64,000 nucleotides of DNA from Anaerolineae bacterium. GTDB lineage: Bacteria; Chloroflexota; Anaerolineae; Aggregatilineales; Phototrophicaceae. Below, one piece after another: positions 30,458 through 56,249 of this stretch. The translations under genes were made by a program, and so were the position numbers. The notes beneath the pieces are model-generated. The model saw only the letters and a program-made list of their open reading frames with translations. It was not told the DNA's origin and searched no databases. Within the stretch, counting starts at the first letter, position 1, and each line of letters opens with the position of its first letter. The stretch spans positions 1 to 64,000 of the forward strand of contig JALOOG010000003.1 in the NCBI GenBank assembly GCA_025454525.1, given 5' to 3'.

Positions 30458-30979
30458 TTAAGTACGTGGTGGGAAAATCCCTTGCATGGCGATGCAAAAG
30501 TTGACCACAAGGTAAGGCATCATGTTGGTATGCGGCGTATTTCCCCCAAAGAAGGTAATGGTGTTAGGGTGCATGGGGGTGAGATTAGTGGCGGTCTGGG
30601 TGTATAAGTTTTCGCCGTCGGCTGTCGCATAAGCGGTATTGTTGGGATTAGAGCGCTCTGCGAGGCCGCTGACTCCGCGTAATATATGGCTATGCGTGGG
30701 CATTTCGGACGCAAGAAGGGTGACAGTGGTACTACCCACGGAGTCGCCTAAGGAATAGTTGGAGAGTCCCGGGCCTTGGCCATAATGGATCGGGGTAGAT
30801 CCCTGTAAATTAGGCAGGGCAAAATTGCTTGCGCCGTTGCCGCCGTAAGTCGTGCCTAACAGCGAAAACAACGCTGTGTTTTGCGAAAGAGGGAGTAATT
30901 GCCCATCACAAAAGGCCCATCCCTGCGGCGGGAAATTAAACGGGAACATGCGAATTTCTGCTAAAAATTGATCGACCAT
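30458..30979 (-). CDS. Tail-collar (MdpB-like) protein, type C, second triplet
   Basis: A 173-residue protein of the phage tail-collar / microcystin-dependent-protein family, last of six. The N-terminal collar domain covers VDQFLAEIRMFPFNF, GWAFCDGQLLPLSQNTALF, LLGTTYGGNG and FALPNLQGSTPIHYG. A Ser/Thr-rich middle with the type C mark GLAERSNPNNTAYATADGENLY follows, and the protein ends in NFCIAMQGIFPPRT. It has no signal peptide. The closest relative in the window is the type C protein at 32131, sharing GVSGLAERSNP and ATADGENLY. TAGGAG precedes the ATG. Collar domains trimerise at the tip of short tail fibres in phage. The bacterial MdpB role is unknown. Confidence 0.9.
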   Translation of the reverse strand: MVDQFLAEIRMFPFNFPPQGWAFCDGQLLPLSQNTALFSLLGTTYGGNGASNFALPNLQGSTPIHYGQGPGLSNYSLGDSVGSTTVTLLASEMPTHSHILRGVSGLAERSNPNNTAYATADGENLYTQTATNLTPMHPNTITFFGGNTPHTNMMPYLVVNFCIAMQGIFPPRT

Positions 30980-30991
30980 GTTGGTTTACTC

Positions 30992-31507
30992 CTAGTTTGG
31001 TGACGGGAAGATCCCGAACAAAGCGATGATAAAGTTAACCGCAAGGCTAGGTTGTAAGTTGTTATGCGGTTGGTTGCCGCCGACACCAGACAGGATGGCC
31101 GGGTTCATGCTGGTATCGGGCCCCACATCATAGATATTCGGGACTGAGCTGGCGGGTGCCAGAGTGTTGTTAGGGATGGTATCCGTAGCAGCCACATTGG
31201 CACCCAAAACGGCATGATTGTGTGATGGGATCTGATTCACGGTCAAAGTGATTTGTTCCGCGCCACCGCTTTGGGCCAAGACATAAGCGCTTAAACCGGG
31301 GCCTTGACCTTGATGCATCGGAGCGCGTCCCCGTAGATCGGGTAAGGCATAAGTCGATTCACCATCACCGCCGTAAGTAGTGCCAATCAATTGAAACAGC
31401 GTCTCGTTTTCGGAGATTGACATCAATTGTCCCTCGCAAAATGCCCATCCCGCAGGGGCGAAGTTGCCTGCGAAAATCCGAATTTCACCTACGTAAGGTG
31501 TACTCAT
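30992..31507 (-). CDS. Tail-collar (MdpB-like) protein, type B, second triplet
   Basis: A 171-residue collar-family protein (STPYVGEIRIFAGNFAPAG, LMSISENETLFQLIGTTYGG, RAPMHQGQGPGLSAYVLAQ). The type B marks are the N-terminal PYVGEIR, N-T-L-x-PA-x-SVPNIYDVGPDT and the C-terminus VNFIIALFGIFPSPN. The frame is open for 18 further codons upstream into the preceding gene, but AAGGAG lies 10 nt before the ATG at 31507, so that start is chosen. It starts 14 nt after the stop of the type A gene. Confidence 0.9.
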   Translation of the reverse strand: MSTPYVGEIRIFAGNFAPAGWAFCEGQLMSISENETLFQLIGTTYGGDGESTYALPDLRGRAPMHQGQGPGLSAYVLAQSGGAEQITLTVNQIPSHNHAVLGANVAATDTIPNNTLAPASSVPNIYDVGPDTSMNPAILSGVGGNQPHNNLQPSLAVNFIIALFGIFPSPN

Positions 31508-31521
31508 GGTAACTTTTCTCC

Positions 31522-32028
31522 TTAAGTGGGACTTGGGAAAACGCCCTGCAAGGCAATACAAAAACTGAGCGCGAGAAACGGTTGTCGATTTTCGTGCGGT
31601 TGACTCCCCCCAACGAAACTCATTGAACTGGTGTTCATGGGCACTGGACTTTGGAAGGGCGCATACACACTTGTGCCGGAACGTGCTGGAATCGAGGTAT
31701 TGGTGAGGGTATTCACATTACCCACGCTTGTGGTAGAAAAGTTTAGCGTATGGGTGTGTTGTGGCAATTCATTTGGGATGATGGTGTGCGCTTCTACCCC
31801 GCCCCGCTCCCCAAGGGTAAACCCGTTGCCTATATGGACGGGTACACGACCGCGAAAATCTGGCAAGGCGAAATTCACTTGACCATTGCCGCCGTAAGTG
31901 GTGCCTAATAGAGAAAATAAGGCTTGATTCTGATTGATGGGCAGCAGTTGACCGTTACAGAACGCCCATCCCCGCGGCGGAAAGCTAAATGCCATGATTC
32001 TAATTTCAGAAAGGTAGGCATCTACCAT
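31522..32028 (-). CDS. Tail-collar (MdpB-like) protein, type A, second triplet
   Basis: A 168-residue collar-family protein beginning VDAYLSEIRIMAFSFPPRG. The type A marks are LLPINQNQALFSLLGTTYGG, RVPVHIGNGFTLGERGGVEAHT, the ELPQHTHTLNF histidine motif, SIPARSGTSVYAPFQSP and the C-terminus LALSFCIALQGVFPSPT. It pairs with the type A protein at 33195. It opens the second triplet, about 100 nt after the hairpin that closes the first triplet. AAGGAG precedes the ATG. Confidence 0.9.
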   Translation of the reverse strand: MVDAYLSEIRIMAFSFPPRGWAFCNGQLLPINQNQALFSLLGTTYGGNGQVNFALPDFRGRVPVHIGNGFTLGERGGVEAHTIIPNELPQHTHTLNFSTTSVGNVNTLTNTSIPARSGTSVYAPFQSPVPMNTSSMSFVGGSQPHENRQPFLALSFCIALQGVFPSPT

Positions 32029-32088
32029 AATTTTTTGCTCCTTACGAAATAGAAAACAAACTGATCGATATTAGAGCTTTACGTACAG

Positions 32089-32117
32089 ACTGGGAACGCG
32101 GTTGAGGCGCTCCCAGT
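32089..32117 (-). terminator. Hairpin between the two collar triplets
   Basis: ACTGGGA...CGCG and GCGC-TCCCAGT form a stem with a 6-nt loop, starting ~14 nt after the stop of the first type C gene on the minus strand. No U-tract follows. It may be a processing site or a partial terminator separating the triplets. Confidence 0.5.
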
Positions 32118-32130
32118 GATTGCTAAGTGA

Positions 32131-32652
32131 TTAACCCCGTGGCGGGAAAATGCCCTGTAGTGCGATACAGAAATTGAGGGTGAGATACGGCATCATGTTG
32201 TTATGTGGAAAACTCGTACCGGCGACATTGGTCATTTGCGGATTCATCATCGTTAAACCCGCAGGTGATGACACATACAGATTTTCCCCGTCGGCCGTGG
32301 CGTACAGATTGTTGCTTGGGTTAGAGCGCTCTGCCAAACCACTGACCGCGTTAAACGCATGGCTATGCGCGGGCATTTCCGTTTGGATAAGGGTAACATT
32401 GGTTGAACCCGTTTCCTCCCCTAAAGCGTAGAGCGAGAGGCCGGGGCCTTGACCTTGTTGTAAGGGTGAACTGCCTTGCAGATTCGGGAGGGCAAAGGTG
32501 GATTTACCATCGCCGCCGTAAGTCGTGCCTAACAACGAAAACAAGGCGGTATTTTGGGCAATGGCCATGATCTGCCCATTGCAAAAAGCCCAACCGACAG
32601 GCGGAAAGTTAAATGCAAAAATCCGAATTTCTGCGACAAATTGATCCGACAT
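32131..32652 (-). CDS. Tail-collar (MdpB-like) protein, type C, first triplet
   Basis: A 173-residue protein, the type C member of the first triplet: SDQFVAEIRIFAFNFPPVG, MAIAQNTALFSLLGTTYGG, SSPLQQGQGPGLSLYALGE, VSGLAERSNPSNNLYATAD and the terminal LNFCIALQGIFPPRG. It is the same length as its counterpart at 30458 and similar to it through most of its length, while differing from types A and B in the middle region. TAGGAG precedes the ATG. There is no signal peptide, so export, if any, uses another route. Confidence 0.9.
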   Translation of the reverse strand: MSDQFVAEIRIFAFNFPPVGWAFCNGQIMAIAQNTALFSLLGTTYGGDGKSTFALPNLQGSSPLQQGQGPGLSLYALGEETGSTNVTLIQTEMPAHSHAFNAVSGLAERSNPSNNLYATADGENLYVSSPAGLTMMNPQMTNVAGTSFPHNNMMPYLTLNFCIALQGIFPPRG

Positions 32653-32664
32653 CGTGATCTGCTC

Positions 32665-33180
32665 CTAAGACGGTGATGGGAAGATCCCATATAATGAAAT
32701 GATAAAGTTGATCGCTAAGATCGGTTGGATATTGTTATGCGGTTGGCTTCCTCCAGCGGGCTGGATGGTGGATGGGCTGAGCGTGGTGTCTGGCCCGACA
32801 TCATAAATATTGGCCACCGACGCGGCCGGCACTAAGGTATTAGCGGGTGTGGTATCCGTAGCGGCCTGATTAGCGATCATCACGATATGGTTATGGGTCG
32901 GCAAGGTGCTAGGGGTGAGCGTAACGGTTTCTACTCCGCCCGTTTCACCGAGGACATAACTCCCAAGCCCGGGGGCTTGCCCTTGATGCACGGGTACACG
33001 GCTGCTAAGGTTGGGCAAAGCAAAGGTTTCTTGTCCATCGCCACCATAAGTCGTGCCGATCAGTTGAAACAGCACTTCATATTCGGAGATCGGCAATAGT
33101 TGTCCTTGGCACAACATCCAACCCAACGGGGCAAAGTTTCCCCCAAACATACGAATTTCACCAACGTAAGGGTTACCCAT
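32665..33180 (-). CDS. Tail-collar (MdpB-like) protein, type B, first triplet
   Basis: A 171-residue protein, the type B member of the first triplet: GNPYVGEIRMFGGNFAPLG, PISEYEVLFQLIGTTYGGDG, RVPVHQGQAPGLGSYVLGE, NTLVPAASVANIYDVGPDT and the end INFIISLYGIFPSPS. It has the same length as the type B protein at 30992 once that start is corrected. AAGGAG is 9-10 nt before the ATG. Both type B proteins end in aromatic-hydrophobic strands followed by PSP, a family feature. Confidence 0.9.
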   Translation of the reverse strand: MGNPYVGEIRMFGGNFAPLGWMLCQGQLLPISEYEVLFQLIGTTYGGDGQETFALPNLSSRVPVHQGQAPGLGSYVLGETGGVETVTLTPSTLPTHNHIVMIANQAATDTTPANTLVPAASVANIYDVGPDTTLSPSTIQPAGGSQPHNNIQPILAINFIISLYGIFPSPS

Positions 33181-33194
33181 GATATTTCAGCTCC

Positions 33195-33698
33195 TTAGCT
33201 TCGGCTGGGGAAAATGCCCTGTAGGGCAATACAAAAAGATAAAGTGAGAAAAGGTTGCCGATTTTCGTGCGGTTGATTGCCCCCAATTGTCCCTAAGGCC
33301 TGTGGATTCATCGTGCCGGCAGATTGCAATGGGCCATAGGCGTTGGTGCCAGCCCGGGCCGGGATTGAAGTGGTGGTCGCGTTGGGGGTCGTACCGACTT
33401 GCGTGGAGAACATCACAAAATGATTATGCGCGGGCATTTCCGAGAGGGTCAACGTATGGGCCTCTTGTCCGCCGCTTTGGCCCAAAGTAAAACCATTGCC
33501 AAAATGAAGGGGTACACGACTGCGTAAATCGGGTAAAGCAAAATTGGTTTGACCATTTCCGCCGTAGGTTGTGCCTAACAGCGCAAATAACGCTTGATTC
33601 TGATTAATGGGCAATAATTGTCCATTGCATAAGGCCCATCCCTTGGGAGCAAGCCCAAAGGACATGATTCTGATTTCACCTAAAAACTGTTCTGACAC
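33195..33698 (-). CDS. Tail-collar (MdpB-like) protein, type A, first triplet
   Basis: A 167-residue protein, first of the six collar genes: SEQFLGEIRIMSFGLAPKG, PINQNQALFALLGTTYGGNG, RVPLHFGNGFTLGQSGG, EMPAHNHFVMFSTQ, SIPARAGTNAYGPLQSAG and the end LSFCIALQGIFPSRS. It starts at a GTG with AAGGAG 7 nt upstream. It lies ~110 nt after the beta-helix gene and behind a strong hairpin, so it may be cotranscribed with the surface proteins at lower level or read from its own promoter. Confidence 0.9.
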   Translation of the reverse strand: MSEQFLGEIRIMSFGLAPKGWALCNGQLLPINQNQALFALLGTTYGGNGQTNFALPDLRSRVPLHFGNGFTLGQSGGQEAHTLTLSEMPAHNHFVMFSTQVGTTPNATTTSIPARAGTNAYGPLQSAGTMNPQALGTIGGNQPHENRQPFLTLSFCIALQGIFPSRS

Positions 33699-37506: not shown

Positions 37507-38301
37507 CTATTGACCGCCACGGAAGGCGTTGAATGATGCGTATTTGAGACTGCGGGGCGGGAGTCCGGTAAAGATGATCGAATAGACCTTGCCTTCCGCG
37601 TCTGGCCCAACATTGATTTGAAATTCACCCGTTGACAACACATACAGCGTGGATTGTGAGACACGCGCTAAGAAGGTGTTTTGCGCGGGCGGGTTATTCA
37701 AATAGGGTTGGAATAACGAGTACGGGAATGATCCCGCAAACACGCCTTGACTTAAGGAGTTAAGGGTATACACCCAAATTTCATTTTGTCCGGCGGTATT
37801 CCGGCGGGCATATAACACATTGAGCAGATCCCCGCGTCCCGGATTCAAGCGATCATCATTGCCGCCGCCTGTACCCCCTGTCGATAGATAGACGGTGGGG
37901 CCGGTGCAGTCCATGATATAGGTTGCGGAACGGATCGACGGATTATTGGTGAGGAAGAACTCGACCGTCCCAGTTACAAACGGTTGATTAAAGGCCACGG
38001 TGTACGAATAGACGATCGTGCTAAGCGTTGGGTACGATAAGGTGTTGTAGACCCCGCCGTCGGTGGTAAAGATCGCCGAAACATCATAAGCCGTAGCGCT
38101 ATTGAGCGTCACCCCGGCCGAATCACGCACCGCGATTTGATACGTACCGTCAAAGGTGTTACTCGCACAACCGTTTAAGGTGATTCCGGTCACGGATAAT
38201 GAAGCTGGAGCGGGTTGGGCGGCCAGCATCCCACTGATCAGCGTCAACGCTACCGCTAAGACTAAGACGATCCCTATTGGGAATAGATTTTTTAGTTTCA
38301 T
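37507..38301 (-). CDS. Secreted protein of unknown family (264 aa) in the surface operon
   Basis: No family recognised. A 264-residue protein with a signal peptide (IGIVLVLAVALTLISGMLAA). It then has a beta-rich domain with three Cys (GITLNGCASN, IMDCTGP), a Gly/Asn/Asp linker (STGGTGGGNDDRLNPGRGD), and a second part ending KYASFNAFRGGQ. The ATG at 38301 is chosen because AAGGA lies 6 nt upstream. A start at 38328 would put nine charged/polar residues before the signal. It sits between the giant Calx-beta protein and the beta-helix protein with short gaps, so it is likely a secreted accessory or linker of that system. Confidence 0.8.
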   Translation of the reverse strand: MKLKNLFPIGIVLVLAVALTLISGMLAAQPAPASLSVTGITLNGCASNTFDGTYQIAVRDSAGVTLNSATAYDVSAIFTTDGGVYNTLSYPTLSTIVYSYTVAFNQPFVTGTVEFFLTNNPSIRSATYIMDCTGPTVYLSTGGTGGGNDDRLNPGRGDLLNVLYARRNTAGQNEIWVYTLNSLSQGVFAGSFPYSLFQPYLNNPPAQNTFLARVSQSTLYVLSTGEFQINVGPDAEGKVYSIIFTGLPPRSLKYASFNAFRGGQ

Positions 38302-38324
38302 GTCACATCCTTTTTGATAATTCA

Positions 38325-38367
38325 CCAAGGCAACCGGAGCGGGCGCAATCCCCGCCCCGGTCGCTTG
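38325..38367 (-). terminator. GC-rich hairpin after the giant surface-protein gene
   Basis: ACCGGAGCGGG (38333-38343) and CCCGCCCCGGT (38351-38361) pair with one bulge. The structure lies between the stop of the 3,040-residue gene and the ribosome-binding site of the next gene. Like the hairpin at 33776 it lacks a U-tract, so it may set relative expression within the operon. Confidence 0.5.
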
Positions 38368-38389: not shown

Positions 38390-41300
38390 TTACGGCATCG
38401 GGATCAGGTCGTCATTGCGTTGACCGTTGACGTTCGCGTCTGGGGTGGGATCCGCGGGTGCTACTGGCGGATCTTGCGGCATCGGGATCGTTTGTCCGTC
38501 CTCGCTCCGACGTGGGGCGCTACCGGGGGCTAACGTGAGTCGGACATCATCGATAAAGATGAAACCCGCGTTTTCACCCGTTTCAAAGCGTGCCACGATC
38601 CGGCTTGGTTGTCCGGTGAGCGTGATGCTGACGGTGTATTCGGTGTAAGCACTGGTGCCGGCCGGGATTTGGACACGGGTACGCGGACGGTTCTCACGGC
38701 TATAACGTGCCACGATCATCATCCGGGCCGCGTTTTGCAAGTTTTGGGTGCGAACGCGGGCCGTCAACGTCAACACATCACCCGCTTGGCCATACGGCGG
38801 CAAGTCGATGTTTTGGACGAAGATTTGTGACCAGTTGCTATAACCGTTCTTGCCCATACGGAAGGCACAGCTTCCCTCAAAGACGCTGCCACTACAGACT
38901 CGACGTGAGTCTGGGCCGGCCGGGATCTCTTCGGTCAAGATGTCATCATCCACCGTGCGAGTACGGTACAAGCGCCAGTTATCCGGCATATTGTTGTTAT
39001 CCGCGTCGGTTTCAAAGCCACCATTGACCAACAGGTTTCCACTGCTATCGATCGTAAAGGTGAACGGTTGGTTGCTGGCGTTGGTATTGCCCAAGGGACT
39101 CTTAGCGGTGACAGTCCATTGATAGGTGCCGTCGGTCAACAACGCTTGTTCGGTTACGCCGATCGTCAAGGTACAGTTCGTGCCGTCGCAAGTCAGCGCG
39201 TCCGCATCGGCGGCGCGAGTGACATCGGTAAACGTCACCACGTTTGCTTGTGCGACCGGAAGTGTCCGGTTGATCGCAAAGTCAAACGTCAAACCGGGAC
39301 TGGTGCTAAGTGTGTCTTGCCATTGGAACGTGGTCAAACTGGTGACGTTCGGGATGTAGATGAAGTTGGACGGGCGCACCAAGTTGAAAGCCGCGGGCGG
39401 CGTGGTGATGCCGTCGGTGATCGTCACCGTTACATCCACACTGGTCAAAGCGTTATAGAACGCATCCCCCGCGCTACTGATGTCGTGGGTGATCAGTTCT
39501 GTGCCTGCATCCAACGTGAAGTCCTCTAAGGCGCTCACGGTGATCGTGCGGGCGGTGTTCCAAGTGGCAGTGGTAAACGTCAAGACGACGGGTGAGACTT
39601 GTGGCGCACCTGCATCCACCGCGAGGCGGATCTGGGTGTCGTCAAAGGTCAAGGTGACGGTGACATCGCCCAACGGTTGGCTATTGAGTAAGACGCGGTA
39701 TTGGTCGGTGGTGAACCCTTCACGTACCGCAACATCCGTCAATAGGTTCAACGGGGTGTTATCGGTGTCGTTTAAGACCAACGCCGGGACATCATCCTCA
39801 ACGATGTTGACTACCACAGGCGACGCGGGTTGAATCGGCGCGGACACATAGAACGGATCGGCACTCCCAGAGGTGATCGAGATGTTCGATGTGCCGATGT
39901 TTTGGAACACGTTATCGTCTACCGCGCTCACATTCACCGTTTGCGGTGTATTCCAATTCGACGGGGTGAAGGTCAACAACAATGGCGCAAGGCCGGGAGT
40001 CGGTGAACCCGCTAGAATTTGTGTATCGTTGAAGGTCATCGATACCTGTACGTTCGCGGTCGGTTCGCTGTTCAACACAACGTTGAAGCTGCTTCCCGCG
40101 CCGCCTTCGGTCACAGTGATGTTGTTATCGTTGGCTGTGCCACTGGTTTCGGTGATCACCACGGTTGCGACATCGTTATCGGTGATGTTCACGGTCACGG
40201 TGTTATTCGGCGTGAAGGTCGCGCCGCCCGCGTTATAGAGCAGATCGGTACTGACGGCCGCATGGGTGATCGGGCTAGTGTGCGGATTGGTTTCATCGAT
40301 CGCATCGTCAAAGGCTAACACGTTCAACGTTTGAGCGGTGTTCCAATCGGATGTGGTGAAGGTGAGCGACAAGTTCCCGTCGGTATCGCCGTTCACGCGC
40401 ACTTGCGCCGGATTAAAGGTGAGGTTCACGGTGACGTTGGCCGTCGGTTGCGAGTTCAAGACCACCGTATAGGTGTCTGGAGTTGCGCTTCCTTCGGTCA
40501 CGTTGGTGGTGCTATCGGTTTGAGTGATCGTGATGCCCGCCGTGTCGTTATCGGTGATGTTAACGGTCACTTGCGCGCCGTCCGGTAACGCATCGTAGAA
40601 CGGATCACTACTGGCGATGGCGTGGGTGATCAACTCGGTGTGCGGATCGGTTTCGTCCAGACTGTCATCCACTGCTGACACGGTGACCGTTTCGGTGAAA
40701 TCAACGGGGGTCAAGGTGACAACCACAGGTGAGACTTGGCCGTTCACGCGGATTTGTGCGCTGTTGAAAGTCAAGGTCACGGTGACATTGGCCGTCGGGC
40801 GCGTCAAAGCTTCGATCGTATACGGGGCGGTCGTGCCACTTTCAGAGACGTTGACCGTCCCCGGAGCAATTTGAATCGCCGCAGTATCGTTATCAATGAT
40901 CGAAACCGTCACATCGGCCGGATTCACGCCGCCCGTACCCGTGTTGTAATTCGAGTCGGTGCTAGTGAACGTTTGGGTGATCAGCGTGGTGTGTGGGCTG
41001 ACTTCATCAATGTTGTCGTCAATCACGACCACTTCCACGGTTTGTAACACGTTCCAATCACCCGGCACGATCGTAAACGTGGCCGGTGAGGTGCTAAAGG
41101 GTGTTCCATCCGCGATCAAGCTGATTTGGGCAGGATCAAACACGAGGTTAACGGTGACATCTTGCGTCGGGCGCGAGTCTAAGCGGATCGTGTAGCTATC
41201 CGTGGCCGCAACGTTGGCTTCGGTTAACTCGGTCGTGCCGCCGCTTTGGATCACTTGCGATCCGGGGGTGTCATTATCGGCGATATTGACCAAGACATCA

Positions 41301-44300
41301 GCCGGATTGACCACATTGTAGTTTGCATCGCCACTGGCGGCCGTTTGTACGATCGTGGTGCTATGGGGCCCTTCGGTCACAAAGTCATCCACGGCCAAGA
41401 CGGTGATCGTTTGCGGTGTATTCCAATCCCCAGAGGTAAAGGTGAGGGAATACGTGCCGTCGGTTTCGCCGTCCACAGTGATCTGGGCTGCATCAAAGGT
41501 GATGTTCACGGTGACATTCGCGGTCGGTTGCGAGTTCAACACCACGGTGTAATCTTGACTGGTGGGGCCGTCTTCATTGACCGCCACGGTCGTCGGATTC
41601 ACGGTGATCCCCGCGGTATCGTTATCATCGATCGCCAATGTCCAGTTTGATCCGGTCAAGGTGATGTTGGGTGCGAAGTTGGGGTTATTGTTGTTGAGTT
41701 CAATATCCACCTGTTCGCGATCCGTGCCACCCCGGAACTCATCGATGTTGTCATCAATGATCGTGATCGTAACCGGTTGGGTCGCATTGTTTGCCGATCC
41801 CGCTAGGAAGGTGATGCTGGTGGTGACTAAGATAAAGTCATCCGGGGTATCGGCGCGGGCGCTGGTCGGTGGCGCTTCCACTGCTAAGACGTAATTCACC
41901 GGAATGGTGAGATCCGCTGCCAAGGTGCCGCCGGCCGGGTCCGTCGTGATCAACAGCGTGGCGTTACGGACAAAACTGCCCACATTTTCGTTGACGATCA
42001 CCGACGACCCGACAAAGTTCACCACGGCCGAGTCGTTTTCGTCAATGGTGACGACATGCGTCCCGGTGGCAGTCACGGAACTGGGGCCGGTGACCGTGCC
42101 GAAAGCGAGTGAGAAGGTTTCATCGGTCGCTTCCACCAACGAGTCGTTGACAATGGTGTTAGTGATCGAACGGGTCGCACCCGATGCTGTACCCGAAGCA
42201 AAGGAGATGCTGTTGGTGACGCGGGTATAGTCTGGTGCGGTGGCGGTGCCGGGGGTGTCGGTGATGTCTATGGTGATCGCATCGCCGGTTCGAATCGGGC
42301 CGATACCGTTACTTGTGATCGTCAAGACCGCGTTCACCAAGTGAGGTGAGGTCGCTTCTGAAACGGTACTGGTGGCGGTGCTAAAGGTCACGGTGGCGCT
42401 TTCGTTGTCGATAATCGTCACCACATGCGTTCCAGACACCGTTCCTGTACCACTGATCAGCGTGTAGTCAAGGGTAAAGGTTTCGTTCGCTTCTTCTACC
42501 AACTGATCGTTGATGATCGTGAAGTTGATCGGTCGGGTTGCGCCATTGGTTGAACCAGCAGCAAAGGAGATCGAGGTGGTCGTCTGACTGAAGTCGGCAG
42601 CCTCGGCTGTACCGAGCGTGACGTTTACACTCGCCGTCAGCGCACCGCTGAGCGTGCCGCCGGGGGTACCGTTGGTCACCAGATCTAAACGTGCGGTGAC
42701 GGTGTGGGTTCCCACATTTTCGTTAGCATTGCTGCTGGGGGTGGTAAACACGATGGTGGCGGTGTCGTTATCGGTGATGCTCACCGTTACATCCGCCGGG
42801 CTGATCGCGTTGTAGACTAGATCGGTACTGGTGACGCTTTGATCGATCAAAGTCGTGTGCGGATTGGCTTCGACAAGCGTATCGTTCACCGCAAACACGG
42901 TCACGTTTTGGGGTGTATTCCAGTTGGACGTGGTAAACAGCAACGAGGTTACGCCGTCGGTATCGCCGTTCACAGTGATTTGCGTTTCATCAAAGTCGAT
43001 ATTCAACGTCACGTTTGAGGTGGGTTGGCTGTTGAGGACGACCGTATAGCTATCGCCCGCTCCGCCTTCAACCACGGCGGTATTTCCGCTGCTTTCGGTG
43101 ACGGTGATGCCCGCGGTGTCGTCATCCAAAATGATGATCGTAGAACGACTACGACAAGCCCCGCTGAAACCCAGTGATCCCGAACAATCGTCATTCGCCG
43201 CGTTTGACACCAAGATCGGTACGCCTGCATACGAGGCACGCACGACCGGATCGTTGAAGCCAACATCAAAAAATTCACGGTTTTGGTTAAACAGACTTAA
43301 CGCACCGTAAAATTCATCGATCCCATCGTTGATTATGGTAACCGAAATCGGTTGTACGGCATCGTTGGCTGCTAAGGCCGGGAAGTTGACGGTGGTGGAG
43401 ATCGCGGTGAAGTCCGCGCCGGGAGTCGCATCGTTGGGATTCCCTAAGGCGGTATTGCTCACCGGGACGCTAAACGCATCTTGGACTTGGACTGTCCCAG
43501 TCCCAGTTGCCACGATCCGCAACCGTACATTGGTGGTACGAGCGGTGTTGGACTCGATGTCGTTGGTATCGTTGACCACAAACGTCGGATCCATGGTGAT
43601 GTAGGCGAAGTCGTTTTCGTCAATGGTCACGGCAATCGTACTCGTGCCGGCCGTCACACTACTAGGCAGTGTGCCGAAAGTGACATTGAAGTTTTCCGGC
43701 GTATTAAAACCGGTCGAACTAAGGGTGCTACGTTCAACGGTGCGATCGTTGTTGATCGTGATCGGCGCGTTTTGGGTTGCGCCATCGCCTGCACCGGCGG
43801 CAAAGGTAACATTGATCGTATTGGCAGGGCCGGTAAAGAACATATCCCCCGTTGCACCACTAAAGACCGCGGTATTATCCACCAGATTCAAGGGGATGAT
43901 CGCGTCTTCGGCGAGGGTTGCGCCGCCCGTTGTCGTCAAGGTGACGACCGCGTTATGCGTCCCTACGGCTTCGCTGACCGTGGCCGCGCCACTTAAAGCA
44001 ACTGTAGCGCTATCGCCGTCGGTGATTGTGCCGGTGAAGTTTGTCCCTGATACGGTGACACCCGTCGGAGAAGATCCTAAGGTGATCGCCACCGTATAGG
44101 TTTCGGGGCCTTCTACCAAGGTATCATCCAAATGCGGGATCGTGATCGCATTGGTCGCTAAGTCGCTCACATTGGTAAACGAGAGCGCGCCCGTCAATGT
44201 ACCCAGATCGGCCGCTTCGGCCGTGCCTAAGGTGAGACCTAAGGTGTAGTTGATCGTGCCTTCTAAAGTGGGAGTGCCACCCGTCGGATCGGCGGTGATG

Positions 44301-47300
44301 TCTAAGCGCACGTTGGGCGTGTTATTCGCGCCTTCGGCCGCGCTGGCACTGGTGGGATTCCACTCGACTACGGCGGTTTCGTTATCGGTGATATTCACCG
44401 TAAGCGTATTGGTGTTGGTCGTGCCGTCTACGCGGGCGGTTGCGCCATTGTAGTTGGGATCGCCACTGGTAAACGCATGAACTAGCGTTCCACTGTGATC
44501 GCCTTCAAGGGCGCGATCATTCACCGCCGCGATCGTGAGCGTTTGGGCGGTATTCCAGTTACCCGCGGTGAACGTGGTGTTAAACGTGCCGTCGGTGTCC
44601 CCATTGAGCGTAAGATCGCTTGCTGGGAAGGTGATCGCCACGTTAACGGTAGAAATAGGTTGCGAGTCTAACACGATCGTGTAGGTATCGGTCGTACCCG
44701 CTTCGGTGACAGCGTTGTTACCGCCGCTTTGGGTGATGGTGATGCCCGCGGTATCGTTATCGCTAATATCCACCGTCACATCTGCCACGGGGAGATTGGT
44801 AAAACGACTTTGAGAGCTGACCGTGGTGGCCGTGGTCAAGATCACGGAATGCGGATCGGTTTCATCAATGAAGTCATCGATCGCTTGCACAGTGACCGTA
44901 ACCCCAGTATTCCAATTTGCAGGAGTCAGGGTGACGGTTTGCGGAGAAGTTCCGAGGCCGCTGCCCGTGTTGACGCGGATTTGCGCGCTGTCATAGGTCA
45001 ATTGGATCGTGACATTGGCGCTAGGCGCTTGGTTCAAACTCACCACAAAGGTGTCTGTGGTTTCGCCCGTTTCGCTCACGGTGAGCGTAGTCTCAGAGAC
45101 CAAGACTTCCGGCGCAAGGCTATAGGCATAAGCCGCGCCCGAATTGCTGATCGAGTTCGCGTCATGTTGGGGTGAACCGACCAAGAACAAGCCGCTGCCT
45201 AAGGCAACACTCGTCCCAAAGCGATCATCAGCAACACCATCACCTGGGGTTAAAACGCCTTCTTCCGTCCAGACTTCAGCCGAACGAGAGAACACAAACG
45301 CGCTCCCGCGGGAAGTGGCGGTGCGCGGCGCGCCGACGATTAACGTCCCAGCATCCATTGACACTGAGAAACCGAATTGATTGCTGCTTGCCCCGATTAG
45401 GGTAGAAGTTGTGGTAAAGCTGGGGCCGCTAAACACAAACACCTCACCGCGTGGCGCGCCAGTGAAGTTACCGGTGGGTGCGCCCACGGCTAAACGGCCA
45501 TCAAACAGCGAGACCGACCAACCAAACCGTGCGCCCGCGACCGGAGTCGGTGAGGGGATCGTGTTGATCGTGCTGAAGGTAGCGCCGCTGAAAACATACG
45601 CTTCACCGGTGCTACGGAAGGGCGAACCGACCGCGATCGACTCGTCATTGGGAGTACCGGGGGCGGGATCATAGACTGAAACCGAAGTCCCGAACTGATC
45701 GCCCGGATCGGTGCCGGTTAGGATGATTGGGCTGGTCAAGAGCGAGAGATCGCGATAGGCGTAAGCAAACCCTTGTTCAGAGGCTTCACCGGGAGCGCCA
45801 ACCACGATCACATCGCCGTTAAAGTCCACCGACGATCCGAAATACCCATTGACGACTTCATTCGGTGAGCGACGTTCCACACGTTGCACCCAGTTTGTGC
45901 CGTCAAATTCAAACAGGTAAACCATCCCTGCATTCGCATTGTTACCGATAAAACTTGTAGAATACGGCGCACCGACCACTAAGCGTGTACCAGAGAGCGC
46001 CACACTATAACCGAAGCCGTTGCCCGGTTGCCCATATAACGCTGTGAGGCGGCTATGGGGTGTCCACACGCCGCTGATATTCTGATAGAGATAGACCACA
46101 CCGCGATCGCTACCGGGGAAAGACTCCGGTACACCGACGGCTAACCAAGTGGAAGTAAAATCGACACTTGTCCCCATCACCCGATTCGTGGCGGTGTCTG
46201 GAAGGTCGATGATTGGGGTGATCTCCGCGCCGGGTGTCCAATTGACCCCAGAGCGGCTATAGAGTTGAATCGAACCGGCCCGCATGGGGCGACCCGCCGA
46301 AAAATCGGGTTCAACATCGCTACGCGCTCCAGCAACCCCGATCGTTCCGAAGACATCCACCGACCAACCGAAGTTGTCATGTACAAAGGTGTCCGCTTGT
46401 GTGCTGAGGGTCAAGGTCTGACTCCAACTCGTACCGTTGAAACCGACACCCGATACCGACCCATTGTTGAGTGAAGGGCTATCTAACCCGGGAACACCAA
46501 ACAGCGCACCGTCTCCATCGATCGAGACGCTATAGCCACGATAATGGTTGACATTGGATGCCACGGCCGCACCGACAAAGCTATTGACCAGTGTGCCGTT
46601 TCCATAGAGATAGGTCGCGCCGACATTGGCAAACGCACCGTTATCCAGCAAAGGCGCGCCCACGATTGACCGCGATCCGGAGCCGGTATCGAAAATCCCT
46701 ACGGCAAAACCGAAGTAATCATCGACTGTGCCAGCAGGGGCATTTAAGGTGTGTTGTACGCCCCACACATTGGAACCGCCTTGGTTACGGAACAAGAGAT
46801 ACGCTTGACCCGCACGTTGACCGGTCGCTGTCACTGCACGCGGCGCACCGACGATCGCATAATCACCCGAAATATCTACCGAGATCCCATGATCGACGTT
46901 GGCTTGCGCGTGGGTAGAGGTAGCGATCAGCGAATTGGTGTTGGCGTTGATCACATAAGCTTCATTGTTACCGGGCGCACCGACGATCGCTAACGTGCCG
47001 CTAATAGCCACAGAATGGCCAAAACGGGCATTTGGTGCGGCGAGCGGGTTGATTAATTCGCGGGTTTGACCCCAATTGCCTGTGCCGCCCGCATCGCGTT
47101 CTAGCACATACACCCGCCCTTGACTACCCGTTGAGGCCGGCGCACCGACAAGGATGAAAGTCCCCGCCTCGTTGATCGCCACATCATAGCCATAACGTTG
47201 TCCGTTTTGGACATTGGTTAAAGGAATGCGTACCCGCCGTAGTGTCCATGTACCGGACACATTCTCGTAAATATGGACTTCTCCAGGGCTGTTTGATGAT

Positions 47301-47512
47301 CTAGGCGCGCCCACCACCATCCAAGTGCCATTGGTGGCGACCGATTGCCCAAATTCATTATCTGGCAGCATCCGTGGCGTGTCCCCGGTGAAGTCACCTG
47401 CGGTTAACTTTTGATCTTGGGCAAAAGTCGCCGCTTGCACTTCTCGCTGTGGTAACAAGATGAAAGTTCCCACCAGTAAGAGCAGTATGAAACGTAAAAG
47501 ATTAGATCGCAT
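38390..47512 (-). CDS. Giant secreted surface protein: FG-GAP-like beta-propellers, 15 Calx-beta-like repeats, C-terminal domain with IPMP tail
   Basis: A 3,040-residue exported protein, the largest gene here. The signal peptide is about LRFILLLLVGTFILLPQREVQA. From about residue 35 to 800 there are 14 FG-GAP-like units (typical: FGHSVAISGTLAIVGAP, then AYVI/VYLY), enough for two seven-bladed propellers. From ~805 to ~2700 there are 15 Calx-beta-like units of 110-150 residues, each closing with a variant of VTVNITDNDTAGITI. They have acidic positions suited to calcium. A fibronectin-like segment (~2700-2825) and a C-terminal domain starting LLVNGGFETD (~2829) follow. This last domain has RRVCSGSVFEGSC, and then a Pro/Asp-rich tail with TIPMPQDPP and the end LIPMP. 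The ATG at 47512 has GAGG 5 nt upstream. It is probably a calcium-stabilised adhesin or matrix protein. Confidence 0.9.
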   Translation of the reverse strand: MRSNLLRFILLLLVGTFILLPQREVQAATFAQDQKLTAGDFTGDTPRMLPDNEFGQSVATNGTWMVVGAPRSSNSPGEVHIYENVSGTWTLRRVRIPLTNVQNGQRYGYDVAINEAGTFILVGAPASTGSQGRVYVLERDAGGTGNWGQTRELINPLAAPNARFGHSVAISGTLAIVGAPGNNEAYVINANTNSLIATSTHAQANVDHGISVDISGDYAIVGAPRAVTATGQRAGQAYLLFRNQGGSNVWGVQHTLNAPAGTVDDYFGFAVGIFDTGSGSRSIVGAPLLDNGAFANVGATYLYGNGTLVNSFVGAAVASNVNHYRGYSVSIDGDGALFGVPGLDSPSLNNGSVSGVGFNGTSWSQTLTLSTQADTFVHDNFGWSVDVFGTIGVAGARSDVEPDFSAGRPMRAGSIQLYSRSGVNWTPGAEITPIIDLPDTATNRVMGTSVDFTSTWLAVGVPESFPGSDRGVVYLYQNISGVWTPHSRLTALYGQPGNGFGYSVALSGTRLVVGAPYSTSFIGNNANAGMVYLFEFDGTNWVQRVERRSPNEVVNGYFGSSVDFNGDVIVVGAPGEASEQGFAYAYRDLSLLTSPIILTGTDPGDQFGTSVSVYDPAPGTPNDESIAVGSPFRSTGEAYVFSGATFSTINTIPSPTPVAGARFGWSVSLFDGRLAVGAPTGNFTGAPRGEVFVFSGPSFTTTSTLIGASSNQFGFSVSMDAGTLIVGAPRTATSRGSAFVFSRSAEVWTEEGVLTPGDGVADDRFGTSVALGSGLFLVGSPQHDANSISNSGAAYAYSLAPEVLVSETTLTVSETGETTDTFVVSLNQAPSANVTIQLTYDSAQIRVNTGSGLGTSPQTVTLTPANWNTGVTVTVQAIDDFIDETDPHSVILTTATTVSSQSRFTNLPVADVTVDISDNDTAGITITQSGGNNAVTEAGTTDTYTIVLDSQPISTVNVAITFPASDLTLNGDTDGTFNTTFTAGNWNTAQTLTIAAVNDRALEGDHSGTLVHAFTSGDPNYNGATARVDGTTNTNTLTVNITDNETAVVEWNPTSASAAEGANNTPNVRLDITADPTGGTPTLEGTINYTLGLTLGTAEAADLGTLTGALSFTNVSDLATNAITIPHLDDTLVEGPETYTVAITLGSSPTGVTVSGTNFTGTITDGDSATVALSGAATVSEAVGTHNAVVTLTTTGGATLAEDAIIPLNLVDNTAVFSGATGDMFFTGPANTINVTFAAGAGDGATQNAPITINNDRTVERSTLSSTGFNTPENFNVTFGTLPSSVTAGTSTIAVTIDENDFAYITMDPTFVVNDTNDIESNTARTTNVRLRIVATGTGTVQVQDAFSVPVSNTALGNPNDATPGADFTAISTTVNFPALAANDAVQPISVTIINDGIDEFYGALSLFNQNREFFDVGFNDPVVRASYAGVPILVSNAANDDCSGSLGFSGACRSRSTIIILDDDTAGITVTESSGNTAVVEGGAGDSYTVVLNSQPTSNVTLNIDFDETQITVNGDTDGVTSLLFTTSNWNTPQNVTVFAVNDTLVEANPHTTLIDQSVTSTDLVYNAISPADVTVSITDNDTATIVFTTPSSNANENVGTHTVTARLDLVTNGTPGGTLSGALTASVNVTLGTAEAADFSQTTTSISFAAGSTNGATRPINFTIINDQLVEEANETFTLDYTLISGTGTVSGTHVVTIIDNESATVTFSTATSTVSEATSPHLVNAVLTITSNGIGPIRTGDAITIDITDTPGTATAPDYTRVTNSISFASGTASGATRSITNTIVNDSLVEATDETFSLAFGTVTGPSSVTATGTHVVTIDENDSAVVNFVGSSVIVNENVGSFVRNATLLITTDPAGGTLAADLTIPVNYVLAVEAPPTSARADTPDDFILVTTSITFLAGSANNATQPVTITIIDDNIDEFRGGTDREQVDIELNNNNPNFAPNITLTGSNWTLAIDDNDTAGITVNPTTVAVNEDGPTSQDYTVVLNSQPTANVTVNITFDAAQITVDGETDGTYSLTFTSGDWNTPQTITVLAVDDFVTEGPHSTTIVQTAASGDANYNVVNPADVLVNIADNDTPGSQVIQSGGTTELTEANVAATDSYTIRLDSRPTQDVTVNLVFDPAQISLIADGTPFSTSPATFTIVPGDWNVLQTVEVVVIDDNIDEVSPHTTLITQTFTSTDSNYNTGTGGVNPADVTVSIIDNDTAAIQIAPGTVNVSESGTTAPYTIEALTRPTANVTVTLTFNSAQIRVNGQVSPVVVTLTPVDFTETVTVSAVDDSLDETDPHTELITHAIASSDPFYDALPDGAQVTVNITDNDTAGITITQTDSTTNVTEGSATPDTYTVVLNSQPTANVTVNLTFNPAQVRVNGDTDGNLSLTFTTSDWNTAQTLNVLAFDDAIDETNPHTSPITHAAVSTDLLYNAGGATFTPNNTVTVNITDNDVATVVITETSGTANDNNITVTEGGAGSSFNVVLNSEPTANVQVSMTFNDTQILAGSPTPGLAPLLLTFTPSNWNTPQTVNVSAVDDNVFQNIGTSNISITSGSADPFYVSAPIQPASPVVVNIVEDDVPALVLNDTDNTPLNLLTDVAVREGFTTDQYRVLLNSQPLGDVTVTLTFDDTQIRLAVDAGAPQVSPVVLTFTTATWNTARTITVSALEDFTLDAGTELITHDISSAGDAFYNALTSVDVTVTITDGITTPPAAFNLVRPSNFIYIPNVTSLTTFQWQDTLSTSPGLTFDFAINRTLPVAQANVVTFTDVTRAADADALTCDGTNCTLTIGVTEQALLTDGTYQWTVTAKSPLGNTNASNQPFTFTIDSSGNLLVNGGFETDADNNNMPDNWRLYRTRTVDDDILTEEIPAGPDSRRVCSGSVFEGSCAFRMGKNGYSNWSQIFVQNIDLPPYGQAGDVLTLTARVRTQNLQNAARMMIVARYSRENRPRTRVQIPAGTSAYTEYTVSITLTGQPSRIVARFETGENAGFIFIDDVRLTLAPGSAPRRSEDGQTIPMPQDPPVAPADPTPDANVNGQRNDDLIPMP

Positions 47513-47550
47513 AAACACCTCGCATTTTCATTCCCTCGCGAGCGTCTGTT

Positions 47551-50803: not shown

Positions 50804-50960
50804 TTGTGAACCTAAAACCCTTATAGGATGACATGATCAAAATTACCTTGTTGGGTGGATCACTTCATTGTAACAAAACTGCGGCTATAGTCCATAAGAG
50901 AGCGCTAGGGTAAAATTCGGGAAATAGAGTTTTTAAAATGAGTTGCACCAAGGAGGCGCA

Positions 50961-53825
50961 ATGTCAAACCCACCTGTAGCGGTTCAAAAATACGGGCAAA
51001 GTATCTGGATTGATAACATCCGGCGTAAGCTGCTCACCGACGGCACCTTTACCCAGTGGATCGATCAATTCGGCGTAGTGGGTGTCACCTCAAACCCCAC
51101 GATCTTCCAAAAAGCGATCGGCGGCTCAGATGATTACGATGAGACGATTAAAACCATGCTCAGTGATGACGTGGATACCATTTATGAGCGCTTGGCGGTG
51201 GCCGATATTCAAGCGGCCGTTGAGATGTTCCGGCCGATCTATGATGCTACTGAAGGCCGCGATGGGTATGTCAGTCTTGAGGTGTCCCCTCTACTCGCCC
51301 ATGACACCCAAGGCACGATTGAAGAAGCCAAGCGGTTGTATCAAGCGGTCAACGCGCCCAATGTCATGATCAAGATCCCCGCCACTCCCGAAGGCATTCC
51401 CGCGATCGAAGAGACGATCTACACCGGAATCAATGTCAATGTCACTTTGATCTTTTCGGTGACCAATTACCTCCAAGTGGCCGAAGCGTATATCCGCGGA
51501 CTCGAACGTCGTCAGGCCGAGGGCAAACCGATCCAAAAGATCGCCTCGGTGGCCAGTTTCTTCTTGAGTCGGATCGATACGATGATCGATCAAATGCTGC
51601 AAAACAATGTACGCGCCGCCCAAGGCCGCGATATTGACCGCGTGGCTGCGAACAATCGTTTGTTAGGCAAGGCCGCGATCGCCAACGCAAAACTCGCTTA
51701 CAAACACTTCATGACCTTGTTTTATGGGGATCGCTTCGCTCAATTGCGTGCCGCTGGCGCACAAGTCCAACGGCCGCTCTGGGCCTCCACCAGCACCAAA
51801 AATCCCGCGTATGCCGATACGATGTATGTGGATGCGCTGATCGGGCGCGATACCGTCAACACCTTACCCCCCGAAACCTTGGCCGCCTTCAAAGACCATG
51901 GCACCGCCGATCATGAATCGATCCTTGATGCGATCGATCAAGCGCAAGAAGTCTTGGATATGCTGGCTGAAGTGGGTATCGACATCGATCAGATCACCAA
52001 ACGCTTACAAGATGATGGCGTAGAGGCGTTTGCCAACTCATTCACATCCTTGATCGAACAGGTGGACGCAAAACGTACCCTCTTGCAAACGGGTTTGATG
52101 TCCCAGACGCGAGTCGCCTTAGGGATCTATGGCGATGCTGTGCAGAGTGCGCTCAAAGCGCTTGACCAAAAATACATCAATGCGCGCATCTGGTCAAAAG
52201 AGGGCAGCGTCTGGAAAGACCACGGCCCGACGATCGCCAAGATCGAACAGCGCCTCGGTTGGTTAGATGTGTTGGACACGATCGATCTAGAGCGCGTTAA
52301 AGCTTTACAAGGGCAAATGAGCGCGTTTAGTCATCTAGTATTGTTGGGTATGGGCGGGAGTAGCCTCGCTCCGGAAGTCTTAAGCGAGACCTTCGGACAT
52401 ACGCCGGGGTATCCTCGCTTTTTGATGCTGGATAGCACCGTACCGGAGCGGATCAAACAAATTGAGGACGCGATCGATCTCCCGAACACGCTGTTTATTG
52501 TGGCCAGCAAGTCCGGATCAACGATCGAAACCGATTGTTTTTATCGCTACTTCTACGATAAAACCGGCGGCAACGGCCGTCAATTTATCGCGATCACCGA
52601 TCCCGGCTCACAATTGGCTCAAACCGCTCAAGCCGAAGGCTTTCGGGAGGTGTTCCTGAATCCGGCGGACATCGGCGGGCGTTATTCGGCACTCAGCTAC
52701 TTTGGGATCGTGCCGGCCGCCCTCATGGGGATCGATGTGCAGGCCTTGTGGGATAGCGCAGGTGAGGTCATCCGCTCCTCAAATAATAACGTGAGCGCCG
52801 CGCAACACCCTAGCGCCTATCTCGGCGCGATCATCGGCGCGTTGGCCTTGAATGGACGCGATAAGCTGTGTCTATTTTGCAGCCCGTCAATTGCCACCTT
52901 TGGAAGTTGGGTGGAGCAGTTGGTCGCCGAAAGCACAGGCAAAGAAGGCAAGGGGATTTTACCCGTCGTGGGTGCAACTGTCGGAAAACCGCATGATTAC
53001 GCCAGTGATCGCGTGTTTGTCTACCTCAAAGTCGAAGGCGATCCGGGGAATGAGGAATTAGATCCCGGGATTCGTGCGTTGCGAGAGGCCGGTCATCCGC
53101 GCATCACGATCACCTTAAAAGATCGGTTTGCGTTGGGTGGAGAGTTCTTCCGGTGGGAATATGCAACCGCGATCGCGGGCCATCTCTTAGAGATCAACCC
53201 CTTTGATGAGCCGAACGTCACCGAGAGCAAAAACAACACCAGTCGCTTGTTAGATCACTTCCAAGCGCACGGCCACTTCCCAGAGACCACGCCGCTGTTA
53301 CAAACCGATGCGGTCAAGTTATATCTGAATGAGACCACCCGGCAATTGTTGTTCCAAGTGGGCGAAAAACACGGCTATGATACGTCGGATGTGGTGCAGT
53401 TATTGGCCGCGCAACTGATCGGCACACATGCCGGGGATTACTTCGCGATCTTGGCTTATTTGCCACAAGACCCGGCGATCAGCGAAAAATTAGAGGAGAT
53501 CCGCCGCCGGATTCGTCATGTGACTCGGCGTGCTGTCACGGTCGGTTATGGCCCACGTTACCTGCATAGCACCGGACAACTCCACAAAGGCGGCGCGAAT
53601 AATGGCGTGTTCTTACAATTCACCCATGACGACGCACTCGATCTCGCCATTCCGGGGATGCCCTTTAGTTTTGGCACGCTGAAGACCGCGCAAGCGGCCG
53701 GCGATTTTGAGGCGCTTAGCACCCATAAACGGCGGGCGCTCCGTATTCATCTAGGGGATCATCCCTTGAATGGGTTAGACACGGTGTTAGCGGCGATCCA
53801 ATTTGCTGAAAGTCGCAATCAGTAA
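50961..53825 (+). CDS. tal-pgi: Bifunctional transaldolase / glucose-6-phosphate isomerase
   Basis: A 954-residue fusion of two central-carbon enzymes. Residues ~10-370 are transaldolase: GVTSNPTIFQKAIG, ATEGRDGYVSLEVSP, and the Schiff-base Lys region NVMIKIPATPEG, with RPLWASTSTKNP. From ~390 the protein is phosphoglucose isomerase: LVLLGMGGSSLAPEV, FIVASKSGSTIETD, AITDPGSQLA, NPADIGGRYSALSYFG, and the catalytic region near LHSTGQLHKGG. Such Tal-Pgi fusions are known in several bacteria and join the non-oxidative pentose phosphate pathway to glycolysis. The ATG at 50961 follows AAGGAGG at 50950-50956 (4-nt spacing), so the upstream TTG at 50943 is not used. Confidence 0.95.
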   Translation: MSNPPVAVQKYGQSIWIDNIRRKLLTDGTFTQWIDQFGVVGVTSNPTIFQKAIGGSDDYDETIKTMLSDDVDTIYERLAVADIQAAVEMFRPIYDATEGRDGYVSLEVSPLLAHDTQGTIEEAKRLYQAVNAPNVMIKIPATPEGIPAIEETIYTGINVNVTLIFSVTNYLQVAEAYIRGLERRQAEGKPIQKIASVASFFLSRIDTMIDQMLQNNVRAAQGRDIDRVAANNRLLGKAAIANAKLAYKHFMTLFYGDRFAQLRAAGAQVQRPLWASTSTKNPAYADTMYVDALIGRDTVNTLPPETLAAFKDHGTADHESILDAIDQAQEVLDMLAEVGIDIDQITKRLQDDGVEAFANSFTSLIEQVDAKRTLLQTGLMSQTRVALGIYGDAVQSALKALDQKYINARIWSKEGSVWKDHGPTIAKIEQRLGWLDVLDTIDLERVKALQGQMSAFSHLVLLGMGGSSLAPEVLSETFGHTPGYPRFLMLDSTVPERIKQIEDAIDLPNTLFIVASKSGSTIETDCFYRYFYDKTGGNGRQFIAITDPGSQLAQTAQAEGFREVFLNPADIGGRYSALSYFGIVPAALMGIDVQALWDSAGEVIRSSNNNVSAAQHPSAYLGAIIGALALNGRDKLCLFCSPSIATFGSWVEQLVAESTGKEGKGILPVVGATVGKPHDYASDRVFVYLKVEGDPGNEELDPGIRALREAGHPRITITLKDRFALGGEFFRWEYATAIAGHLLEINPFDEPNVTESKNNTSRLLDHFQAHGHFPETTPLLQTDAVKLYLNETTRQLLFQVGEKHGYDTSDVVQLLAAQLIGTHAGDYFAILAYLPQDPAISEKLEEIRRRIRHVTRRAVTVGYGPRYLHSTGQLHKGGANNGVFLQFTHDDALDLAIPGMPFSFGTLKTAQAAGDFEALSTHKRRALRIHLGDHPLNGLDTVLAAIQFAESRNQ

Positions 53826-54215: not shown

Positions 54216-56249
54216 ATGTCATCGAAATTGCGTTTATTGTTCATGTTTATCGTGCTGCTGTTGCTCAGTAGCTTGATTCCGGTCTTGGGAGAAGGCAGCC
54301 GTGAGGCGGTCGCCACGGGCGGCGCACGCCCAAGTTTAAGTAATGATGTGTATGTCTATGTAAATGCCGGTGAAGATGTTTTGTTGGGCAGCAATGTCGG
54401 TATCTCATGGCTTAGCCCGACCGGTATCGACAACGGATCTTGCGCGGGTGGGAACTTAAACTCCCCCGCCGCGGAAACGGCCGGCCCCTTGCCCACCAGT
54501 GGCGGTTATAACCCAGGTGACATCAACAACCCCAACTCCAGCCCCACGGATTGTGTGTTTGATGCAGAAGAGAGTGGTATTTACATCATCAGTTATAGCA
54601 CTCTATACACTTACTGGGATGTGACGGTGCGTACTACGGCGAACAACGCATCCACCACGATCACCGGACGGACGTATGTCACCATTTTCGCCGCTGATTT
54701 CGGGGGTTGGTTTAGCCCCGGTGGCCCCGGCGTGGCTTGGCGGCAAGTGGTGTATATTCTCACCCGTGACGGCTATCTGTATCGCATGAATATGAACGAT
54801 GTAGACGGCTTCGTGATGCAGTTCTATTCCAACAACAAAGGCTTGCGTGATGCAAACGGTTTACCTGTGTACACGTCGGGCAATGCCAACCTATTTACGA
54901 TCCAAGATCCCACCACTGCGGATACGGCGACCGATTGGACAAACAAGATCTTCATCAACGTCCCCGCGGCCGATCTGCCGTTAACCGCGCCGATTAATTC
55001 AACCTCTGGCCAAACTTCGACTTGGTTACTCACCCCGCCGATCAATATCGAGATTATCAACTTCACGTTTACCCCCACTGCCCAACAAGGCGGCAATGCT
55101 CAACCCGGGGGCGGTCAATTTGCGTTCACCGTGTCCAACGGCACGCAAATCAACTATGACATCGTGTTGACTTTCAGCAATCCAAGCTATCAAACCCGTC
55201 GCTTGGTGGGATCAACCAATACAATCTCGACCACTGCCAATTGGGATGGTTTGGACGGTACAGGGGCGGTCGTCGCTAGTTCAAATGTCAGCGCACAATT
55301 GACGCTTAAAGGCGGTGAGGTTCACTTCCCGTATCAAGACGTGGAATACAACTACCGCGGTATGATTTTGCAATTGCTACAAGGCAACAAACAAGGCGAT
55401 CCGTTAACGGTCGTGACCTCCAACATCTACTACAACGATAGCACGATCGGCCGTCCCGGTGGCCCGACCCCACTTAACGCATCAATCACCCCCGTAGACA
55501 GCAGCGCGGGCGCGCACGTTTGGGGCAACAATTTCGGGGATGCGCTGTTGATCGATACTTGGTCATTCCTGCCAGACATCAACGAAACCAACAACTTTAC
55601 GGTCAATCCATTCCCACCGACACCGACGAATACCCCTCTCCCACCCACCGCCACCAACACGCCTGTTCCGCCCACGGCTACATTTACCGCTACACCAGAA
55701 CCCACTGGGATAGAATTGTTACAAAATGGGAGCTATGAAGTCGTTGAACCGACCGATCCCTTACAAGCGGCTTTCTGGGGTTTCCGTTCACCCAATGGCG
55801 CTACGGGCGAGAGACGACTCTGCAACTCGGTTCCGGCGTTTGAAGGGGTGTGCGTGTATCAATTCCGTGGCAGCGGCCCGACTGAAGACAGCATCCTTCA
55901 ACAACGGTTAGATTTGAGCAGTGTCACCTTAAACGCGGGCGATCGTCTGTTCTTGCGCGGTCAGGTGTGGGCGTTAGACGCGCCGAACTACCGGATTCGC
56001 TTGGCCGTCACCTATAACGACGGCACGACTGAATATCCACAAATTCGCTTCAATACGGCGACCAGTGGATGGACACCCTTACGCGACTCGACCACGGGCC
56101 AACGTTTAGACTTCACGATCACCCGTACTGACATCGCACAAATCCGCTTGATCATCTGGGGCCGTAACACCTTAGGCCGCGCCAACTTCGACGCGATGAG
56201 CGTCCAGTTGATCGAACCTAGTTTTTCACCGATGATCCCGATGCCTTAA
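54216..56249 (+). CDS. Secreted protein with Pro/Thr linker, C-terminal FEGxC domain and IPMP tail
   Basis: A 677-residue exported protein. The signal peptide is about LLFMFIVLLLLSSLIPVLGEG. A beta-rich N-terminal region of ~440 residues has no recognised family (it holds GDINNPNSSPTDCVFDAEES and a long stretch rich in Thr, Asn, Tyr). The linker PTPTNTPLPPTATNTPVPP follows (~468-490). From ~497 a C-terminal domain (IELLQNGSYEVV, RRLCNSVPAFEGVCVY, AGDRLFLRGQVW, ANFDAMSVQL) resembles the C-terminal domain of the giant surface protein, and both proteins end in IPMP. AAAGGGAG precedes the ATG. It is a single-gene unit between a tRNA and a strong terminator. It is likely displayed by the same machinery as the giant protein. 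Confidence 0.85.
   Translation: MSSKLRLLFMFIVLLLLSSLIPVLGEGSREAVATGGARPSLSNDVYVYVNAGEDVLLGSNVGISWLSPTGIDNGSCAGGNLNSPAAETAGPLPTSGGYNPGDINNPNSSPTDCVFDAEESGIYIISYSTLYTYWDVTVRTTANNASTTITGRTYVTIFAADFGGWFSPGGPGVAWRQVVYILTRDGYLYRMNMNDVDGFVMQFYSNNKGLRDANGLPVYTSGNANLFTIQDPTTADTATDWTNKIFINVPAADLPLTAPINSTSGQTSTWLLTPPINIEIINFTFTPTAQQGGNAQPGGGQFAFTVSNGTQINYDIVLTFSNPSYQTRRLVGSTNTISTTANWDGLDGTGAVVASSNVSAQLTLKGGEVHFPYQDVEYNYRGMILQLLQGNKQGDPLTVVTSNIYYNDSTIGRPGGPTPLNASITPVDSSAGAHVWGNNFGDALLIDTWSFLPDINETNNFTVNPFPPTPTNTPLPPTATNTPVPPTATFTATPEPTGIELLQNGSYEVVEPTDPLQAAFWGFRSPNGATGERRLCNSVPAFEGVCVYQFRGSGPTEDSILQQRLDLSSVTLNAGDRLFLRGQVWALDAPNYRIRLAVTYNDGTTEYPQIRFNTATSGWTPLRDSTTGQRLDFTITRTDIAQIRLIIWGRNTLGRANFDAMSVQLIEPSFSPMIPMP

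Follow-up and report, generated by a model that had tools for sequence, protein, structure and literature searches.

About 30 exported proteins encoded in the genome of an Anaerolineae bacterium (assembly GCA_025454525.1) share a C-terminal domain followed by a short tail, usually [LM]IP[ML]P at the very end, behind N-terminal parts that differ from protein to protein. The tail peptide is itself under selection, and we give about an even chance to its being part of a lineage-specific C-terminal retention or sorting module, in which a glycan-docking domain is combined with a short recognition motif. The genome (5.24 Mb in 230 contigs) is the only one of its genus in the set analyzed, and two of the proteins are encoded in the window, the 64,000-nucleotide stretch of contig JALOOG010000003.1 that was analyzed (Table 1).

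The ORF translations of these two genes agree with the ends reported by the first-pass annotation: the giant protein terminates in ...NDDLIPMP, with TIPMPQDPP 28 residues earlier, and the 677-residue protein in ...SFSPMIPMP. LIPMP runs directly into the stop codon, and the tail is thus not followed by a membrane helix, also as described. The two C-terminal domains align at ∼24% identity and fall in a single profile family with ∼30 copies in this genome, which bears out the proposed relationship between them. The motifs LL-x-NG-x-[FY]E, RR-x-C...FEG-x-C, and AGD are present as proposed, but 4 to 5 residues, and not 5 to 7, separate the first Cys from FEG. Elsewhere in the window, a transaldolase is fused with a glucose-6-phosphate isomerase domain (50943-53825, plus strand), and six tandem genes of ∼170 aa (30458-33698, minus strand) code for proteins that we take to resemble phage tail-collar/microcystin-dependent proteins.

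Table 1. Features of the two genes in the window that code for proteins with the C-terminal domain and tail
Feature	Position	Strand	Basis
3042-aa exported-protein gene (giant protein): 12 FG-GAP_2 repeats, Calx-beta repeats, C-terminal domain, LIPMP tail	38390..47518	-	ORF, Pfam
Giant protein, signal-peptide-like N-terminus	47429..47518	-	hydropathy only
Giant protein, predicted C-terminal CBM-like beta-sandwich domain	38531..39034	-	profile; E 4.7e-46 with domain alignment A1
Giant protein, linker and tail, 46 aa	38393..38530	-	
Giant protein, internal tail-motif copy TIPMP	38477..38491	-	
Giant protein, terminal LIPMP	38393..38407	-	
677-aa exported-protein gene: no Pfam match, TPTNTPxPPTA linker, C-terminal domain, MIPMP tail	54216..56249	+	ORF, Pfam
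677-aa protein, signal-peptide-like N-terminus	54216..54293	+	hydropathy only
677-aa protein, predicted C-terminal CBM-like domain	55716..56210	+	alignment, AlphaFold pTM 0.75
677-aa protein, linker and tail IEPSFSP-MIPMP	56211..56246	+	low-confidence (flexible) in AlphaFold model

When the 677-residue protein is compared with the whole genome, 25 places match, all except its own only along the last ∼225 residues, and the matching ORFs carry other N-terminal parts. The DNA pattern for IPMP plus a stop codon is present at 30 sites, versus none for a reversed control pattern; 23 sites are ends of intact ORFs, one belongs to a degenerate paralogue in which it is preceded by an in-frame stop, and six are chance occurrences in noncoding DNA. 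Among 290 long ORFs in ∼440 kb of DNA from this genome chosen around tailed genes, IPMP occurs 27 times, 25 of them within the last 60 residues. IPMP is thus enriched at C-termini over chance, and the sharing of one C-terminus by proteins with unrelated N-terminal parts, first described for two proteins, extends to about 30. A profile built from the domain alone, with linker and tail left out, gives 30 copies with a natural stop, of which 23 end exactly in [LM]IP[ML]P, two have LIPMP plus further residues, two end in LMP, and three have no tail; this tailed fraction is slightly inflated, as most loci were chosen by domain similarity and some by the tail pattern. Many exported proteins in the fetched DNA, which is biased toward tailed genes, do not have the tail.

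Tail conservation far exceeds that of the neighboring residues. In pairs of tail-selected proteins with domain identity below 20% (18%), the linkers are 9% identical and the last five residues 93%, the latter figure describing conservation inside the tailed set because the pairs were chosen by tail. The codons vary, the final Pro being encoded in four ways and three stop codons being used, and the DNA 3' of the tailed genes is unrelated except in one recent gene pair; together with the identities, this argues that the peptide itself is selected. The tail is also separable from the domain, since it also occurs on three proteins that lack the domain, one of them 187 aa long, another a subtilase carrying a P-domain, and the third a partial ORF that begins a contig. 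A paralogue of the domain-less 187-aa protein ends in LIPYP, and tandem paralogues of a 187-aa exported protein ending in ELIPMP are found at locus L031 (10831-11990), the second with an in-frame stop nine codons before that end. Eight contigs start or stop inside domain copies, and the assembly was therefore probably broken by near-identical copies, which makes the true gene number uncertain.

The domain is ∼165 residues long, has two near-invariant Cys residues, and is nearly always terminal, followed by a variable linker and then the tail. PF02018 (CBM_4_9) matches five of 31 domain-plus-tail members in a Pfam scan (best E 2.3e-6), and an NCBIfam scan of the same 31 gives nothing relevant. 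An AlphaFold model of the domain of the 677-residue protein (pTM 0.75, mean pLDDT 79, with the tail below 60) matches CBM16, CBM22, and CBM4 structures (Foldseek E about 1e-6; VIA-align Z 13-14). The domain is thus predicted to have a CBM-type beta-sandwich fold, and this fold suggests that it may bind glycans. It has weak sequence similarity as well as the fold in common with CBM_4_9 and CBM16/CBM22, but differs in its terminal position, its Cys pair, and the tag behind it. The cargo is varied, with Pfam families ahead of the module that include FG-GAP, Calx-beta, subtilase, GH44 glycosidase, sugar dehydrogenase (GSDH), amidase, beta-helix, and Big_5/endonuclease, among others, as well as an endonuclease/phosphatase-like N-terminal part. 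All 23 complete ORFs have a hydrophobic, signal-peptide-like start, as judged by simple hydropathy and not by SignalP.

The tail is narrow in taxonomy, and most Anaerolineae are without both domain and tail. Among 199 genomes of the class, the domain profile has strong matches in this genome and in Chloroflexi bacterium OLB13, with one weak match in a further genome (G195); among 121 genomes of the order, Anaerolineae Prado087 and a related family (f6) also match, and a genome-wide scan with a second domain alignment (A2) found no relatives. OLB13 and Prado087 have the same domain and a related tail core (LLPMP, LPPP), often with a second conserved piece added, ...AAPDGFRGGN or AAPDGFRGNN (AAPxGFRGxN). 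Between a few and a dozen further residues come after the core in these sister genera, as in LLPMP-AAPDGFRGNN, and their tails include GVLPPPAAPDGFRGGN, LLPMPAAPDGFRGNN, SGLIPLPPAP, and GVLPLP. Apparent orthologues with an FISGETNP...CW motif end in PPRNLIPMP in the window's genome and in ASRLPVPAAP in OLB13, ends that fit one ancestral tail. In f6, the copies end with the final strand and have no tail, so the domain can work alone; most likely it is older, and the tail was gained in the lineage that gave rise to these genera. Three f6 genomes have the tail-less domain on exported-looking proteins.

A scan of ∼85,000 species for APxGFRGxN followed by a stop gave 24 stretches, and ORFs of at least 60 aa with such an end occur only in OLB13 or Prado087. 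The tail was rejected as a class-wide feature, as 298 genomes of the class mostly have 0 to 3 IPMP-stop sites; higher counts occur in G019 (11 sites) and in G222, G002, and G084 (9 each), and of these the two examined, G019 and G222, offer only short or unconvincing reading frames at the sites. Adjoining the giant gene, a 273-aa exported protein (37507-38328, minus strand) ends in ...FNAFRGGQ, like the FRGGN end of OLB13 tails. FRGG[NQ] was discarded as a tag in this genome, where the count is no higher than in the control and this is the one exported protein with it, the other fetched sites not being gene ends; as a lone instance, it may be a remnant or have arisen by chance.

A dedicated protease or transpeptidase that co-occurs with the tail was sought among exosortase, sortase, and C25 peptidase in 12 genomes. 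Exosortase (PF09721) was dropped as a candidate partner because none of the 12 has a match, the positive control matching in one archaeon only. Sortase is present in 10 of the 12, tailed or tail-less alike: the tailed genomes have 3, 1, and 1 copies, and several genomes without the tail also have 3. It was rejected because its presence does not track the tail. PorU-type C25 peptidase has no match in the 12 genomes and none in the control genomes either, and the recurrent neighbors of tailed loci belong to generic families only, with no specific neighbor.

A sorting, processing, or attachment signal, as the first-pass annotation proposed, fits the variety of cargo, the selection on the tail, the lack of a helix, and the tails without a domain, but the idea that it must be the extreme C-terminus is weakened. 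The core continues into further residues in the sister genera, which weakens a signal that uses a free carboxylate, and tail removal is not required, since usually nothing follows the core in the window's genus. That both are dispensable favors a short linear motif bound in trans, with the glycan-docking domain helping. In such a mechanism, the protein would be exported via Sec by its N-terminal signal peptide, the C-terminal CBM-type beta-sandwich would dock on a cell-wall or matrix glycan, and the short flexible linker would present the [LM]-[IL]-P-[ML]-P motif to a putative extracellular or membrane partner, which would recognize it and place or hold the protein. The coding sequence usually stops at the core in the window's genus and often goes on to x-A-P-x-G-F-R-G-x-N in the sister genus. 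We infer the glycan binding, the trans-acting partner, and the surface or matrix retention. Weighing against a retention or sorting module are the failure to find a partner gene, the lack of the tail in 3 of 30 domain copies and in many exported proteins, the f6 copies that do without it, and the fact that glycan binding is predicted from fold only. A broader proposal, that monoderm Chloroflexota have an undescribed sorting system with a dedicated receptor or transpeptidase and a helix-free [LM][IL]P[ML]P tag (plus AAPxGFRGxN in sister genera), usually behind a CBM-like domain, is possible but falls short of probable. The tag provides a substrate list in three genomes, from which the partner can be sought.

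Other explanations have less in their favor. The tail could be a processing signal, with an extracytoplasmic protease or transpeptidase cutting at the L-x-P-x-P core or immediately behind it and perhaps attaching the protein to an acceptor on the surface, in the manner of sortase, exosortase, and PorU; the cargo logic is that of known CTERM systems, and the conserved extension of the OLB13 and Prado087 tails could be removed. However, no membrane helix holds the substrate, in the window's genus there is usually nothing to cleave off, and in the 12 genomes exosortase was not found and sortase is uncorrelated with the tail, so we consider this unlikely. We think it quite unlikely that the tail is an end cap or quality-control mark with no part in sorting, its proline-rich end shielding the protein from carboxypeptidases or being read by a housekeeping protease of the DegP/CtpA-like kind. 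A short, proline-containing tail that is flexible in the model and occurs as two copies in two proteins would suit such a role, but conserved Leu, Ile, and Met residues would not be needed for protection, this genome also codes for exported proteins with different ends, and the core is often nonterminal in the sister genera. That the tail is a nonfunctional by-product, carried along when recombination spread a mobile C-terminal domain, was already disfavored and is very improbable: although the contig breaks within near-identical domain copies show recent duplication and one gene pair has 3' flanking DNA in common, the tail is kept where domain and linker have diverged and codons differ, and it is present without the domain.

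The preferred reading of a retention or sorting tag has precedents, as the kinds of cargo, the selection that acts on the tail, and the tail's separability from the domain form the pattern from which such tags were argued for PEP-CTERM (PMC1569441) and GlyGly-CTERM (PMC3237569). No paper on the LIPMP tag was found in the literature, and none of the known CTERM, T9SS, or Pfam tail families matches it; among the 31 domain-plus-tail members, there are no matches to the CTERM models of NCBIfam or to the T9SS C-terminal sorting models of NCBIfam and Pfam. PEP-CTERM/exosortase (Haft 2006, PMC1569441) is similar in its short Pro-x-Pro C-terminal tag with many copies per genome, signal peptides, different cargoes, similarity that is stronger within than between species, and sporadic distribution. 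It differs in that the LIPMP tag has no following membrane helix or basic cluster and no exosortase was found, and descriptions of PEP-CTERM are confined to two-membrane bacteria (PMC1569441), whereas the phylum here is reported to be monoderm. In the LPXTG/sortase system, too, a bacterium without an outer membrane exports proteins with a Leu-Pro-type motif close to their C-termini, but the LIPMP tail has no Thr-Gly, membrane helix, or basic tail, and relatives have sortases regardless of the tag. T9SS substrates also have a C-terminal domain on many cargoes and no membrane helix (PMC7468200), but the domain described here is ∼165 aa and CBM-like, whereas the T9SS signal is ∼80 aa. T9SS also requires an outer membrane, and T9SS-like export is unlikely, as a published survey (PMC5826079) found members of the phylum to lack genes for an outer membrane. 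Known C-terminal sorting tags depend on a membrane helix or an outer-membrane machine, and a selected, helix-free tag on ∼30 exported proteins in a reportedly monoderm phylum points to an undescribed route of surface or matrix placement.
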